A stretch of 64,000 nt of DNA, taken from contig NZ_LT732540.1 of the NCBI RefSeq assembly GCF_900155635.1, positions 1,544,003-1,608,002 on the forward strand. Direction: 5' to 3'. The DNA is from Olsenella urininfantis (GTDB taxonomy: Bacteria; Actinomycetota; Coriobacteriia; Coriobacteriales; Atopobiaceae). The translations under genes and the position numbers were made by a program. The stretch's first letter is position 1, and each line of letters opens with the position of its first letter. Positions 28,122 through 54,353 of the stretch are shown here, piece after piece. Below the pieces are notes generated by a model. It was given only the letters and a program-made list of their open reading frames with translations. It did not search any database and had not been told where the DNA came from.

Positions 28122-28198
28122 GCGGCGTTACCTCAGCTGGATAGAGGGTCTGACTACGAATCAGAACGTCACAGGTTCGAATCCTGTACGCCGCACCA
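28122..28198 (+). tRNA. tRNA-Arg (anticodon ACG)
   Basis: Acceptor arms GCGGCGT/ACGCCGC, anticodon loop CTACGAA (ACG), T-loop GTTCGAATC and encoded CCA. With A34 edited to inosine it reads CGU, CGC and CGA. These are exactly the Arg codons used in the leader peptide upstream of argG at 50141-50242. Confidence 0.97.
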
Positions 28199-47287: not shown

Positions 47288-48685
47288 CTAAGGCCTGCCC
47301 GGGGGAACGGCGTCTCTCGCCAAGACCTGCCGTGCCTCCTGCAGCTGCAGCTTCACCGACGAGAGCGCGGTTCCCCCGTAGGTGGTGCGTGCGTTCGCAA
47401 CGCCCACGGGGTCAAGCCCCTTTGTCACGTCCTGCTCGAAGAGCGGCGAGAAGCCACGGAACTCCTCGAGGCTGAGCTCGCCGAGTTCCACGCCCTTGCG
47501 CTCGCAGTACAGCACGAGCTCGCCCACCACCTCGTGGGCGCGCCTGAAGGGCAGTCCCTTCTTGACCAGGTAGTCTGCCACGTCCGTGGCGGCCCCGAAG
47601 CCTTTCCGCGCCTGCTCGAGCATCCTCTGGGGGTGCGTCTTCCAGGTCCTGACCATGCCCTCCACGCAGGACATGCAACCCAGCAGGGTGTCTGCCGCGT
47701 CGAAGGCCCCCTCCTTGCACTCCTGAAGGTCCTTGTTGTATGCCAGGGGAAGTCCCTTCATGGTGACCAGCAGCCCCACGAGAGACCCCACGACGCGACC
47801 CGTCTTGCCGCGTGTGAGCTCGGCGAAGTCAGGGTTCTTCTTCTGGGGCATGATCGAGGAGCCCGTGGAGAAGCCGTCCGAGAGGGTGACGAAGCCGAAC
47901 TCGCCGCTCGACCAGAGGATGATCTCCTCACAGAGACGCGAGAGGTGCATCATCGATACGCTGCATGCGTACTCGAGGTCCAGGAGGTAGTCTCTGTCGC
48001 TGACCGCGTCGAGCGAGTTGGGCATGGTCGAGGAGAAGCCCAGAAGCTCGCTGGTGAGGCCGCGGTCCAGCGGGTAGCTGGTGCCGGCAAGCGCCGCCGC
48101 GCCGAGGGGGTTTGCGTCCGCCGCCTCGAAGGCGCGGGCAAGTCGGGAATGGTCTCGTGCCAGCATCCAGAAGTACGCGAGCAGATGGTGCGAGAAGAGC
48201 ACGGGCTGGGCGTGCTGGAGGTGCGTGTATCCCGGAAGCACCGCTCCAAGGTCCTTACGGGCCGCCTCGAGCAGCGTCTCGCGCAGCCTGCAGTTGCCCT
48301 CCATGAGCCGCGAGAGGAGTTCCTTGGCATATAGCCTCAGGTCGCAGGCGACCTGATCGTTTCGGGAGCGCCCCGTGTGGAGGCGCCCGCCAGCTTCTCC
48401 AATCTCCCTCGTGAGCTCCGACTCGATGGCCATGTGGATGTCCTCGTCGGCCTCGTCCCAGACGAACTGCCCAGAGTCGATCTTGTCCTCGATGTCCTTG
48501 AGGCCCTGGCAGATGGCTCTGCCGTCCTCGTCGCGGATAATCTTCTGCTGCGCGAGCATCTTGGCATGAGCGATGGAGCCCGCTATGTCCTGCCTGTACA
48601 TGCGCCTGTCAATGCCCAGGGAGGCCCCGAAGTCCTGTGCCGACTCGTCCACGCCTTCCTCGAAGCGTCCCGACCAAAGAGCCAT
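47288..48685 (-). CDS. argH: argininosuccinate lyase
   Basis: The protein has 465 residues. It cleaves argininosuccinate to arginine and fumarate, the last step of arginine synthesis. Signatures: ALWSGRFEEG at the N-terminus, HTGRSRNDQVACDLRLY near residue 105, PGYTHLQHAQPVLFSHH near 155 and the loop STGSSIMPQKKNPDFAELTRGK near 275 with the catalytic Ser. It lies 30 bases after argG and should share its leader-controlled transcript. No terminator stands out between its stop and purB; only a GC-rich stretch near 47230-47280 could fold. Confidence 0.97.
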   Translation of the reverse strand: MALWSGRFEEGVDESAQDFGASLGIDRRMYRQDIAGSIAHAKMLAQQKIIRDEDGRAICQGLKDIEDKIDSGQFVWDEADEDIHMAIESELTREIGEAGGRLHTGRSRNDQVACDLRLYAKELLSRLMEGNCRLRETLLEAARKDLGAVLPGYTHLQHAQPVLFSHHLLAYFWMLARDHSRLARAFEAADANPLGAAALAGTSYPLDRGLTSELLGFSSTMPNSLDAVSDRDYLLDLEYACSVSMMHLSRLCEEIILWSSGEFGFVTLSDGFSTGSSIMPQKKNPDFAELTRGKTGRVVGSLVGLLVTMKGLPLAYNKDLQECKEGAFDAADTLLGCMSCVEGMVRTWKTHPQRMLEQARKGFGAATDVADYLVKKGLPFRRAHEVVGELVLYCERKGVELGELSLEEFRGFSPLFEQDVTKGLDPVGVANARTTYGGTALSSVKLQLQEARQVLARDAVPPGRP

Positions 48686-48715: not shown

Positions 48716-49993
48716 CTATGCGCTGGGCGTCCTTTTCTGATCTTCGGCGGCGAACGTGCGCAGCCCCCCCATGCCGGAGGCAGGGCCCTGCCTTGCCGAC
48801 CAGATGGCGCTCGGAAGGCTGTGAATCCCAATGAATCCCGAGGCAAGGCTGCGGTCGAAGCTGTCATCGTCACCGTAGGTGGCAAGGGACGGATCGTAGA
48901 GCGAGTAGGGGCTCCTGCGACCGCACACGCTCAGGACACCCTTGTAGAGCCGAGCCCTGACCTCGCCCGTGACGTGGCGCTGGGTGTATGCGCAGAAGGC
49001 ATCGAGGGACCCCTTGAGCTGCGAGTACCACTTCCCCTCATAGACCGCCGTTGCCCACCGCTGGTCAACCTGGTGCTTGCACCGCAGGGTGGACCCATCC
49101 AGGCAGAGCGTCTCAAGCTCCTGGTGCATGCCGATCAGCGCCAGGGCGGCGGGGCACTCGTAGCACTCGTGGCTCTTGATGCCCACCACGCGGTCCTCGA
49201 TCATGCTCAGCCGGCCAAATCCATGCCTGCCACAGACCCGGTTGAGCTCAACAATCAGCTCGAGCAGGCGCATCTTTTGACCATTCAGCGAGACGGGCCT
49301 TCCTCCCTCGAAGCCCACGGTGATCTCCTCGGGCTCATCGGGAGCCAGCATGGGGTCCCTCGTCATGGTCCAGATGTCTGCGGGAGGTTCAGCCCACGGG
49401 TCCTCCAGGTCCCCGCATTCTATGGCGCGACCCCAAAGGTTGTCGTCTATGGAGTAGGGCTTCTCCACGGTGGCGGGAACGGGCACCCCATGCGTCTTCG
49501 CCCACTCCATCTCCTGCTCTCGGGTAAGGAGGTTCCACTCGCGCGCCGGGGCGAGCACCACGATGCCCGGGTCAAGGGCGCGAATGCTCGTCTCGAAGCG
49601 AACCTGGTCGTTGCCCTTGCCCGTACAGCCGTGGGCTATGTACGCGGCGCCCGTCTCGTGCGCGAGCTCCACCAGATGCCTTGCGATCAGGGGCCTGGAG
49701 AGTGCCGAGAGGAGGGGGTATCTGTTCTCGTAGAGCGCGTTTGACGCGATCGCCTGGGCAAGCACGGTCTCTGCGTACTCCTCGCGCATGTCCAGCGCAC
49801 AGGAGCGGACCGCCCCCATGTCATGGGCCTTGCGCTCGATCCAGCCAAGATCCTCTGCGTCTTGGCCGACGTTTCCGCAGATGGCAATTACGTCAAGGTC
49901 CTTTTCCAGCTGCAGCCACTTGACCATGACGGAGGTGTCCAGGCCGCCCGAGTACGCCAGAACTACTTTTTCCTTTGTGCCTTGCTGAGACAT
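48716..49993 (-). CDS. argG: argininosuccinate synthase
   Basis: The protein has 425 residues. It joins citrulline and aspartate using ATP. The N-terminal PP-loop reads VLAYSGGLDTSVMVKWL, followed by YIAHGCTGKGNDQVRFE near residue 115 and RPVSLNG near 250, all typical. The C-terminal helix is longer than in the shortest family members. The ATG at 49993 is chosen; a TTG at 50005 is possible, and neither has a strong ribosome site. Upstream lie a hairpin terminator (50084-50112) and an Arg-rich leader peptide (50141-50242), so expression is probably set by attenuation. argH follows after 30 bases. Confidence 0.96.
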   Translation of the reverse strand: MSQQGTKEKVVLAYSGGLDTSVMVKWLQLEKDLDVIAICGNVGQDAEDLGWIERKAHDMGAVRSCALDMREEYAETVLAQAIASNALYENRYPLLSALSRPLIARHLVELAHETGAAYIAHGCTGKGNDQVRFETSIRALDPGIVVLAPAREWNLLTREQEMEWAKTHGVPVPATVEKPYSIDDNLWGRAIECGDLEDPWAEPPADIWTMTRDPMLAPDEPEEITVGFEGGRPVSLNGQKMRLLELIVELNRVCGRHGFGRLSMIEDRVVGIKSHECYECPAALALIGMHQELETLCLDGSTLRCKHQVDQRWATAVYEGKWYSQLKGSLDAFCAYTQRHVTGEVRARLYKGVLSVCGRRSPYSLYDPSLATYGDDDSFDRSLASGFIGIHSLPSAIWSARQGPASGMGGLRTFAAEDQKRTPSA

Positions 49994-50083
49994 GAGAGCC
50001 ACCAATCTTCTGTTCCGCCGTGAGCTTGCGTGTGCGGGACATGCCCGCCGGAGGCTAGGCTGCGAGCGCGGGGCGCCAAAAGG

Positions 50084-50112
50084 AAGGGCACCCGACAGTG
50101 CCGGGTGCCCTT
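50084..50112 (-). terminator. attenuator-type terminator in the argG leader
   Basis: On the minus strand, arms AAGGGCACCCG and CGGGTGCCCTT (50102-50112 and 50084-50094) enclose a seven-base loop and are followed by CCTTTTGG. It lies 28 bases after the leader-peptide stop and 90 bases before argG. Confidence 0.82.
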
Positions 50113-50140
50113 CGGTCCGATATGTGGTTGGAGGCCGAGC

Positions 50141-50242
50141 CTAGGCTCCAAGGACCGGTGACAGCGCGCACTGGCGTCGCAGCGTGATTCGTCGATCCTG
50201 GCGTCGGAGGGAGATGCCGAGCTTGAGGTTGCGGTTGTGCAT
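50141..50242 (-). CDS. arginine-rich leader peptide of argGH (33 aa)
   Basis: A short reading frame of 33 codons lies in the transcript leader of argG. Seven codons are Arg: position 4 and three adjacent pairs at 13-14, 17-18 and 22-23, spelled CGA CGC, CGA CGA and CGA CGC (CGC at position 4). GGAGGG lies seven bases before the ATG at 50242, an excellent ribosome site. All seven codons are read by one tRNA, tRNA-Arg(ACG), encoded at 28122. A terminator hairpin follows at 50084-50112. The layout fits ribosome-stalling attenuation: low charged tRNA-Arg would stall translation at the Arg pairs and could prevent terminator formation. The peptide is not expected to have another function. The antiterminator pairing was not worked out. 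Confidence 0.8.
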   Translation of the reverse strand: MHNRNLKLGISLRRQDRRITLRRQCALSPVLGA

Positions 50243-50307
50243 CTTTCATTCCCTCCGTTCTTAGAAGAAGGCTTGATTCTCTCGCCCGTCACATTTGTTA
50301 GTGGGTC

Positions 50308-50336
50308 ACTCTAGGTCGAATGCGTGCCCGTTGCCA
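50308..50336 (-). promoter_or_regulatory. candidate argG leader promoter
   Basis: On the minus strand TGGCAA (50331-50336) and TAGAGT (50308-50313) with a 17-base spacer. Transcription would start near 50301, about 60 bases before the leader-peptide ATG. Confidence 0.45.
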
Positions 50337-50563
50337 GCCAATGAGGCTGCGCGTATCAGACTGGTAACAAAGGCCACGGGGCGGACAGGGAAACCCTGAC
50401 GGCGCAGACGCCAAGAGCGGCTCCAAGGGCCCTCATGAAAAATTTCCTGAGGGCCTCTCCTGCAAAAGCCCAGTTGGATTATGGAGATGCCACAGGAAAA
50501 TATTCTCTGTGGGTTCCTTGACCCGCGCGCGAGGGGGTGAGGCCAGGGCGGTGGGCGGGGCAC
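50337..50563. other. non-coding gap with two imperfect hairpins
   Basis: No credible gene is seen. Two possible stems occur: GGCCCTCA/TGAGGGCC around 50428-50457, and CCACAG/CTGTGG around 50489-50513. Reading frames that cross into the tRNA-Lys gene are spurious. Confidence 0.6.
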
Positions 50564-50598
50564 GAAAAAGGCCATCGCCCAAAAATGGGCGATGGCCT
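50564..50598 (-). terminator. terminator of tRNA-Lys
   Basis: Perfect 13-bp arms (50569-50581, 50586-50598) with a short A-rich loop, followed on the minus strand by TTTTTCG. Confidence 0.92.
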
Positions 50599-52130: not shown

Positions 52131-53780
52131 CTACTTGATGAGGTCAAGCACCTCAGAGAGGCCCTTGCGGCCAAAGCTGACCCTCTCCCTGCCGCTGCCG
52201 TCGTCGACCACCAGGCAGGGCACGCTCATGACGTCGTACTTCTCCCTTAGCTGAGGGAAGTGGTTGATGTCGTAGACCTGTGCGGAAACCCGAGGGTTAT
52301 CCGCCGCTATGCGCTGTGCGGCAAGAACCACCTCGGGACACATGGTGCACGAGAGGCCCACAAGCACCTTGAGGGACACGGGGGCGTCCAAGGATGCGAT
52401 GGCCCTTCGGTCCTCCTCGTCTATGGGCTGTCCCGGGCCTGCGGCATTGTAGATTCCCAGGACGAACGAGGTGAACTCGTGACCGCCGGGAACGCCATGA
52501 AAGCCCATACCAAGGGGAGTCCCATCCATGCGCATCAGCTCCACAAAAGGCAGCTCAGATGCCTCGTCGACGCTCGCGTCCGCACGCTCCACAAGGAGCT
52601 TGTCGCTGTGCGACGCAAGCTCCTCCATATACGCGGAAAGCTCCTGCGATACGGGCCTCTCATCCAGGTGCAGGCGCAGCACGAGGTTGCTCTCGAGGCG
52701 AGAGAACACGGTCTGCAGCTGCGCCACCGTCGCGTCATCGAAGAGCGCCGAGGAGGACGTCCCCTTGGGCTCTGGCTGTGCCACGGGGGTCTTGGGAAGG
52801 CGCGTCACGGGAGCTTGGGGCACAAGCCCCGTGCGCTCCTGGGCTGCCTTCACATAGCGCTCGACGTCCGTCGCGGCCGCGGCCGCCTCGCCCACCGCCG
52901 TCGCAACCTGGCGCAGGCGCTTGACGCACACGTCGCCGGCGGCGAAGAGGCCTTCTGCGGAGGACATGTGGTTCTCGTCCGTGATGATGTAGCCCTGCGG
53001 GCTCAGCTCTGCCACCCCCTGGGCGAGGGCGGTGGCAGGCACGTAACCTGCCTGGACGAAGACGCCGAAGGTCTCTCCCTCCTCCGCGACGTGCCAGCTC
53101 TCTTCTCCCGTCCTGTTGTTGCGCCAGCTGATCTTGCGCAGGGCGGAGTCTCCCTCCACGGACGTGACCTCGCTGTTATAGAGAACCTCGATCTTCTCGT
53201 GAGACTTGGCCCCCTCTGACGCCGCGGGGGCGCAGCTGAAGTCGGCCTCGCGCACAAGGATGGTCACCTTGCGGGCGTACTTCGTGAGGAACACGGACTC
53301 CTCCGCTGCGGCGAAGCCCCCGCCGATGACGAAGACGTCCTTGCCCGTGAAGAACTCTCCGTCGCAGGTCGCGCAGTACGCAACGCCATGCCCCTTGAAC
53401 TCGTCCTCGCCCACAAAGCCCACGCGGCGCGGGGAGGCGCCGGTTGCAAGCAGTATCGCATGGCATGAAAGCGTGCCCTTGGAGCTCTTTACCTGCTTGA
53501 CTTCGCCCGACACGTCAAGGGATTCGACGGTCGCGAGCATGAACTCCGCCCCAAACGCCTCTGCCTGCCGGCGCATCGTCTCGGTAATCTCGGCTCCGCT
53601 GGCGCTGAGGACGCCAGGGTAGTTCACGACCTCGTTGGTGATGGTAATCTGACCGCCAAAGCGGTCCTTCTCCACGACGAGAACCCTGTAACGCGCACGG
53701 GCGAGATACAGGGCGGCGGTGAGCCCCGCTGGCCCACCGCCGACGATGACCGCGTCGTAGAGGTTGTCAGCCTCTGCCAT
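52131..53780 (-). CDS. AhpF-like flavoprotein disulfide reductase with C-terminal thioredoxin-fold domain
   Basis: The protein has 549 residues. Residues about 5-310 form a thioredoxin-reductase domain: FAD-binding VGGGPAGLTAALYLARA, redox centre CATC in AYCATCDGEFF, NAD(P)H-binding VIGGGFAAAEESVFL and GLFAAGDV. A linker (about 320-360) leads to a C-terminal domain of about 190 residues with GLSCTMCPE, a CxxC of the AhpF N-terminal-domain type. In E. coli AhpF the order is reversed (CxxC domain first). It should pass electrons from NAD(P)H to the peroxiredoxin encoded nine bases upstream. The start is ATG at 53780. Confidence 0.92.
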   Translation of the reverse strand: MAEADNLYDAVIVGGGPAGLTAALYLARARYRVLVVEKDRFGGQITITNEVVNYPGVLSASGAEITETMRRQAEAFGAEFMLATVESLDVSGEVKQVKSSKGTLSCHAILLATGASPRRVGFVGEDEFKGHGVAYCATCDGEFFTGKDVFVIGGGFAAAEESVFLTKYARKVTILVREADFSCAPAASEGAKSHEKIEVLYNSEVTSVEGDSALRKISWRNNRTGEESWHVAEEGETFGVFVQAGYVPATALAQGVAELSPQGYIITDENHMSSAEGLFAAGDVCVKRLRQVATAVGEAAAAATDVERYVKAAQERTGLVPQAPVTRLPKTPVAQPEPKGTSSSALFDDATVAQLQTVFSRLESNLVLRLHLDERPVSQELSAYMEELASHSDKLLVERADASVDEASELPFVELMRMDGTPLGMGFHGVPGGHEFTSFVLGIYNAAGPGQPIDEEDRRAIASLDAPVSLKVLVGLSCTMCPEVVLAAQRIAADNPRVSAQVYDINHFPQLREKYDVMSVPCLVVDDGSGRERVSFGRKGLSEVLDLIK

Positions 53781-53789
53781 GGACGCTCC

Positions 53790-54353
53790 TTAGAGCTGCC
53801 CGACGAGGTCGAGGCTAGGCTTGAGCGTCTCCGCGCCGGGCTGCCACTTTGCCGGGCAGACCTGGTCGCCATGCTCGGCCACGAACTGAGCGGCCTTGGT
53901 CAGGCGCAGGAGCTCCTCCGCGTTGCGCCCGATGCCGCCAGCGGTCACCTCATACACCTGGATCTTCCCGGAGGGATCAACAACGAAGGCGCCGCGCTCG
54001 GCCATGCCATCGGCCTCGATGAGGACCTCGAAGTCCTTCGCCAGGGCCTGGGTGGGGTCGGCGAGCATGGGGTAGGTCACCTTGGAGATGCGCTCGGAGC
54101 TGTCGTGCCAGGCCTTGTGCACGAAGTGGGTGTCGCAGGAGACGGAATAGACCTCGCAGCCGATGCCCTGGAACTGCTCGTAGAGCCCCGCAAGCTCCTC
54201 GAGCTCGGTGGGGCATACGAAGGTGAAGTCAGCGGGGTAGAAGAAGAACAGGCCCCACTTGCCAAGGACGTCGGACTTGGTGATGGTCTTGAACTCACCA
54301 TTCTGGTAGGACTGAACGCTGAAGTCAGAAATCTCCTTGCCAATCAAAGACAT
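53790..54353 (-). CDS. ahpC: alkyl hydroperoxide reductase subunit C (2-Cys peroxiredoxin)
   Basis: The protein has 187 residues. It reduces hydrogen peroxide and organic peroxides. The peroxidatic Cys sits in FTFVCPTEL near residue 46, the resolving Cys in DQVCPAKW near 165, and an Arg of the active site in the usual place. It is a typical 2-Cys Prx. AAAGGAAG precedes the ATG at 54353. Its promoter region faces that of the Fur-family gene, with an AT-rich palindrome between them. The reductase gene follows after nine bases. Confidence 0.97.
   Translation of the reverse strand: MSLIGKEISDFSVQSYQNGEFKTITKSDVLGKWGLFFFYPADFTFVCPTELEELAGLYEQFQGIGCEVYSVSCDTHFVHKAWHDSSERISKVTYPMLADPTQALAKDFEVLIEADGMAERGAFVVDPSGKIQVYEVTAGGIGRNAEELLRLTKAAQFVAEHGDQVCPAKWQPGAETLKPSLDLVGQL

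Follow-up and report, generated by a model that had tools for sequence, protein, structure and literature searches.

The argGH locus of Olsenella urininfantis raises the question of whether translation of a short, arginine-rich leader peptide controls transcription of the genes that follow it. In the stretch of DNA analysed here (64,000 nt, hereafter the window), argG, encoding argininosuccinate synthase (48716..49993, minus strand; PF00764, PF20979), has argH, encoding argininosuccinate lyase (47288..48685, minus strand; PF00206, PF14698), on its 3′ side and a short open reading frame (ORF) upstream. The trp, his, leu and ilv operons are controlled by leader-peptide attenuators; control of bacterial arginine synthesis is usually ascribed to repression by ArgR. 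We propose that the leader of argGH serves as a ribosome-mediated transcription attenuator, with the charging state of tRNA-Arg(ACG) as its signal, a reading to which we assign a probability of roughly 0.87. It is based on sequence and comparison, namely the ORF and its frame, its choice of codons, the terminator, and two competing, co-evolving pairings; from these we infer that the leader is transcribed, that ribosomes stall within it, and that the RNA switches in response to arginine.

The leader ORF, located from the sequence and the ORF list, runs on the minus strand from an ATG at 50242 to 50141 and comprises 33 codons (translation, MHNRNLKLGISLRRQDRRITLRRQCALSPVLGA), in agreement with the frame called by an earlier, sequence-only reading of this DNA. 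That reading placed a Shine-Dalgarno motif, GGAGGG, seven bases upstream; the motif is present (50256-50251, minus strand), and the measured spacing to the leader ATG is 8 nt. Like us, it counted seven Arg codons, of which six form three adjacent pairs; four of the seven are CGA and three CGC. It had further remarked that CGA appeared uncommon nearby, and six named neighbouring genes, which served as the codon background, do use CGA for only 7 of 160 Arg codons; against this background, at least four CGA among seven Arg codons would be expected by chance with P of about 1e-4. Two of the pairs fall within a sensor core, CGA CGC CAG GAT CGA CGA (RRQDRR; 50189..50206, minus strand), that is shared with relatives. 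Thus, as in attenuators of the trp/his type, a short ORF that is predicted to be translated is rich in codons for the product amino acid (7 of 33). The possibility of a chance ORF is ruled out by conservation in relatives.

Between the ORF and argG lies the intrinsic terminator that the sequence-only reading had described, a stem with a T-rich tail (50075..50113, minus strand) that is identified by hairpin energy and also listed by a terminator scan. The stem, 50113-50083, has 14 pairs (-27.3 kcal/mol), is followed by CTTTTGGCG, and ends 89 nt before the argG start at 49993. The same arrangement, again typical of trp/his-type attenuators, is weak or was not found in some relatives; no hairpin with a T-run was obtained for 5 of 75 distinct leaders (L090, L093, L114, L121 and L151), and for some further leaders the terminator search chose another hairpin. 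Upstream, a strict scan found no promoter in the window, and a looser scan gave a possible promoter at 50308..50337 (minus strand) with 8 of 12 consensus matches on the looser score, consisting of CTGGCA (50337-50332) and TAGAGT (50313-50308) separated by 18 nt. Across leaders, the looser score of upstream sequences averaged 7.5 of 12, compared with 6.5 for shuffled sequences; scores between the terminator and argG were set aside because the sequences there are shorter. Of 68 distinct leaders, 33 (many of them close kin) have a -10-like hexamer whose 3′ end falls 55-70 nt upstream of the ATG, which gives indirect support to a transcript start upstream of the terminator, a point raised in the sequence-only reading. 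The expected reader of the leader CGA and CGC codons, tRNA-Arg(ACG), was found by ARAGORN at 28122..28198 (plus strand), consistent with the earlier statement that a tRNA for these codons is encoded in the window, and we take it to decode CGU, CGC and CGA. The window also encodes a second tRNA-Arg, with anticodon CCT.

By ArgG, the nearest named relative is Parafannyhessea umbonata (66%), and closer genomes reach up to 76%. Within the Parafannyhessea family, ArgG was identified in 120 of the 140 genomes, and the argG upstream region is readable in 116 (the 120 less L195 and L196, in which the ArgG motif was not found, and G110 and G048, in which the argG start is missing). An in-frame RRQxRR core (RRH in two) following an SD-preceded start occurs in 69 of these 116 regions and, as described below, in nine genomes of a second family, so that the Arg-rich frame, which the sequence-only reading had suggested looking for in relatives, proves to be conserved. 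At the nucleotide level the core reads CGA-CG[CT]-CAG (CAT in two)-NNN-CGA-CG[AT]. Searched for strictly and in any frame, it is found in 71 of 125 argG upstreams, a number that takes in the window and one genome counted twice (L001 = L119), and in every one of the 71 it shares the frame of a start that follows an SD; relaxing the core brings in four further argG upstreams, none of them in frame. Six further genomes have a shortened leader in which xRRI is kept and the first Arg pair is damaged. We also observed that these shortened leaders (L144, L148, L149, L151, L158 and L161) retain CAG-NNN-CGA-CGA-ATC. Divergent ORFs containing Arg codons are found at L094, L143, L175 and L179, and a covariance model of the leader lists L094 at E 7.5e-7 and L175 at E 0.69, with L143 and L179 unlisted. 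Several subclades of the family have an absent or degraded leader, and in one leaderless clade argR is located immediately upstream of argG.

The wider spread of the leader was examined by pattern and then by covariance model across 396 genomes from the class, 87 of which gave model hits at E <= 0.01. With the cutoff lowered to E <= 1.6e-5, 71 hits remain, one per genome and every one before argG: 62 are in the Parafannyhessea family, where adjacency to argG was judged from coordinates compared by eye, and nine are in a second family, where the sequences were read and each precedes argG. The second family, with 138 genomes searched by pattern, includes Candidatus Aveggerthella (G003). Among the weak hits (23 rows, E 5.6e-5 to 0.01), L242-L245 and L248-L250 were read, and there is no Arg leader among these. 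A more distant locus, titled Coriobacteriaceae bacterium (L005, 2552-2685; E 1.3e-5), has a divergent leader upstream of argG that ends in RRR and a stop. In a 65-row tree built from ArgG, with the divergent L237 and L238 scored as leaderless and L094 as bearing a leader, the leader label requires 4 changes, compared with 19.2 when labels are shuffled, and the simplest reading would be one gain followed by several losses. The window clusters with nine leader-bearing rows (100/99) and has a long end branch.

When the start was chosen by SD strength alone, a stop-free ORF in frame with the core was obtained in 70 of 70 scored leaders (72 distinct leaders less L001 and L090, which have no qualifying SD), across ten different start-to-core distances ranging from 10 to 22 codons; the nominal P for this conservation of frame is 4e-34, a value that ignores kinship. 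Both Arg pairs open with CGA in every one of the 71 leaders; this is followed by CGC or CGT in pair one and by CGA or CGT in pair two. Altogether, CGA accounts for 224 of 416 Arg codons in the leaders versus 3 of 461 in argG, the latter counted from the available argG sequence, often the 5′ part alone. A study using a Salmonella his-leader assay reports that Arg pairs containing CGA stall ribosomes (PMC4046918).

How might stalling at these codons be communicated to the terminator? Pairing energies define three regions, all on the minus strand. Region 1 (CCAGGATCG; 50193..50201) lies within the Arg codons and forms the 5′ side of a protector helix. Region 2 (50148..50173) can pair with region 1, through 50157-50148, or with region 3, through 50173-50152. 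Region 3 (50096..50118), the antiterminator partner of region 2, is made up of GGACCG, located just upstream of the terminator, and the terminator 5′ arm and loop. Among leaders, region 2 begins about 26 nt past the start of the core and is complementary to GGACC-like bases together with the terminator 5′ arm and loop. A search for an alternative fold in competition with the terminator, proposed in the sequence-only reading, was thus successful, and the competing pairing co-evolves with the terminator. When cognate partners were compared with swapped ones, the antiterminator gave z of -10.1 with 52 representatives and -7.9 with 33 (0 of 20,000 permutations in each case), and the protector helix gave -6.2 and -5.3 (0 of 20,000 permutations). 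The 52 or 33 leaders are those left of 73 after removal of near-duplicates, with L001 and L114 outside the 73, and the terminator expressions used to locate the pairing block were fitted by eye.

For column-wise tests, two alignments, A1 with 29 leaders and A2 with 26, were made, and A1 was scored. In A1 the antiterminator has 78.5% paired cells, compared with 76.0 for shuffled controls and 30-47% when the helix is slid, and 28 cells are changed on both sides, compared with 17.2 for shuffles, of which 1 in 500 was as high; its covariation is moderate: on two of five measures, 51 and 58 of the 500 shuffled sets did as well. The protector helix has 82.8% paired cells versus 78.1 shuffled, and its column-wise covariation is weaker, with 351, 52 and 351 of 500 shuffles on three of five measures and a higher covariation score when the helix is slid by one column. 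In folding calculations with 45 of 75 distinct leaders, the mean number of expected pairs made to the terminator 5′ arm was 4.95 with region 1 free and 10.0 with region 1 hidden; there was a gain of more than one expected pair in 31 of 45 leaders and a fall in 0 of 45. For the window itself, the protector helix is strong (-14.1 kcal/mol, rank 7 of 52), the antiterminator is comparable to shuffled sequences (z -0.4, rank 27 of 52), and the fold is unchanged by hiding region 1 (9.3 vs 9.2 pairs). An antiterminator that excludes the terminator, as in trp/his-type systems, is seen as a co-evolving pairing across the set, whereas the window alone gives the z of -0.4 just cited, and is not the best example.

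Together, the conserved Arg frame and the competing, co-evolving fold support attenuation as the sequence-only reading had envisaged it, with stalling as the inferred step. According to our model, a ribosome supplied with ample arginine would pass the paired Arg codons and reach the stop at or near region 2, allowing the terminator to form and transcription to end before argG. If charged tRNA-Arg(ACG) were scarce, the ribosome would stall at the CGA-CGN pairs and keep region 1 off region 2; free region 2 could then pair with the terminator 5′ arm and loop, and RNA polymerase would read into argGH. Without translation, region 1 would pair with region 2 and termination would be the default. The leader resembles those of the trp, his, leu and ilv operons in having an SD-preceded short ORF, clustered regulatory codons, a terminator, an antiterminator and biosynthetic genes downstream, and it differs in using Arg codons, with the poorly read CGA always first in the pair.

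A different account would place the signal in the nascent peptide (RRQxRRI/T), which could act as an arrest peptide that senses free arginine or another ligand inside the ribosome tunnel, with tRNA charging being secondary. Retention of Gln, as 69 of 71 leaders have CAG, and the other 2 CAT, directly after the first Arg pair and Gln is kept in the six shortened leaders as well, would be expected on this account, as would the frequent occurrence of Ile or Thr after the second pair. We nevertheless consider it quite unlikely. The peptide varies freely 5′ and 3′ of the core, with the stop 21-63 nt past the core start, and twelve different codons occupy the position that separates Gln from the second pair; CGA is fixed at two places, for which a peptide sensor would have no need, and a stall at high arginine would mistime the induction of a biosynthetic operon. 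Yet more improbable, in our view, is that what has been conserved is an RNA element, such as a riboswitch, a T-box or a protein-binding site, within which the ORF is incidental. Such an element could account for the nearly fixed nucleotides of the core and for the segment past the Arg codons, which is conserved even out of frame or beyond the stop, but not readily for a frame that survives changes in length in 70 of 70 leaders, or for a codon between the pairs that co-varies with its pairing partner. Moreover, no Rfam family was matched at threshold and a low-threshold scan gave weak matches only; for T-boxes in particular, the window has no Rfam match at the gathering threshold, and there is no T-box among six weak leader matches at E <= 5.

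The third alternative, and the one we regard as least probable, is that ArgR acting at the promoter controls argGH, the leader being without regulatory function. Of the 140 Parafannyhessea-family genomes, 116 do encode the ArgR DNA-binding domain, and the subclades with a missing or degraded leader would be in keeping with such control. However, 18 of the 24 genomes without this domain carry the leader, 14 in full and 4 in shortened form (the identity of four of the 24 is deduced from the genome list). The ArgR C-terminal domain was found in 0 of the 20 of these genomes that were searched, compared with 6 of 6 control genomes, and for one of the genomes without it, G116, apparent loss of ArgR through poor assembly is unlikely, since its leader sits on a 2.18 Mb contig. 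Scans with an E. coli ARG-box consensus revealed no excess upstream of leader-bearing argG (mean z 0.17, n = 69), which is weak evidence, since there is no excess before leaderless argG either (mean z -0.05, n = 19).

Several described systems share features with the attenuator proposed here. Orf34 of Salmonella speF (PMC6386406) is similar in being a short upstream ORF whose response to arginine depends on Arg codons in succession, but its target is ornithine decarboxylase, it acts by way of Rho, mRNA decay and access to the ribosome site, it has no intrinsic terminator, and is conserved as PF10940; the 33-residue peptide of the window matches no Pfam family at E <= 0.001, and hence not PF10940 (speFL/DUF2618). 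In rbfL of Staphylococcus aureus, rare leader Arg codons pause ribosomes under arginine limitation; in contrast to the argGH leader, this eight-residue peptide blocks a ribosome binding site, exerting translational control over a biofilm regulator, with repression when arginine is scarce (PMC13009471). Within the same phylum, the Corynebacterium ilvB leader is reported as a conserved upstream ORF that regulates an amino acid operon, and differs in concerning branched-chain amino acids (PMC10272879). Actinobacterial examples of leader-peptide attenuators are described in PMC1262725, a 2005 survey that reports no conserved RNA structures upstream of arginine operons and in which the names Collinsella, Atopobium and Coriobacter do not occur.

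A search of article texts in one open-access library gave no bacterial arginine attenuator of this type among the matches listed, in accord with the earlier remark that arginine attenuation is rarely described in bacteria, and the searched main text of a premature-terminator survey and of RNA-motif surveys contains no such case. The type of mechanism is known; as far as we have found, its use for arginine, its fixed CGA sensor and its presence without detectable ArgR are new. If the leader is a conserved Arg-codon attenuator, arginine would join the amino acids under attenuation control. It would also open the question of how a poorly read codon tunes a sensor of tRNA charging, and would provide a tractable switch for actinobacteria in which few regulators are known, among them lineages where no ArgR was found. 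A broader interpretation, speculative and on the whole rather doubtful, is that these leaders constitute an unreported class of attenuator built on the worst-read pairing, that of an inosine-34 tRNA-Arg with CGA; such a leader would report the charging of a single tRNA, and perhaps its A-to-I modification, would be the sole arginine-specific control of argGH where ArgR is lacking, and would have counterparts in CGA-CGA-CGA leaders arising before argJ.

With regard to other arginine genes, ArgJ is present in 103 of 140 Parafannyhessea-family genomes, and inspection by eye of the argC upstreams of 7 genomes revealed no similar Arg leaders. Of 55 argJ upstreams, 34 are readable, and three (L253/G130, L258/G001 and L298/G135) contain a small ORF with CGA-CGA-CGA that is preceded by an SD of the GGAG type; no intrinsic terminator is obvious by eye near the ORFs of L253 and L258. 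These ORFs are possibly second arginine leaders, although at 3 of 34 readable loci an Arg leader before argJ is not a conserved feature.

The surroundings of the argGH leader in the window have features of their own. On the minus strand, a terminator-like hairpin (50569-50598) lies directly 3′ of a tRNA-Lys gene and sets the tRNA apart from the leader, and two inverted repeats with A/T loops were noted by eye between the two, at about 50430-50520. Farther upstream, the same strand encodes a thioredoxin-reductase-like protein that carries a thioredoxin domain at its C terminus (52131-53780, by Pfam), whose gene is adjoined by an ORF that appears by eye to encode a peroxiredoxin-like protein (53790-54353).
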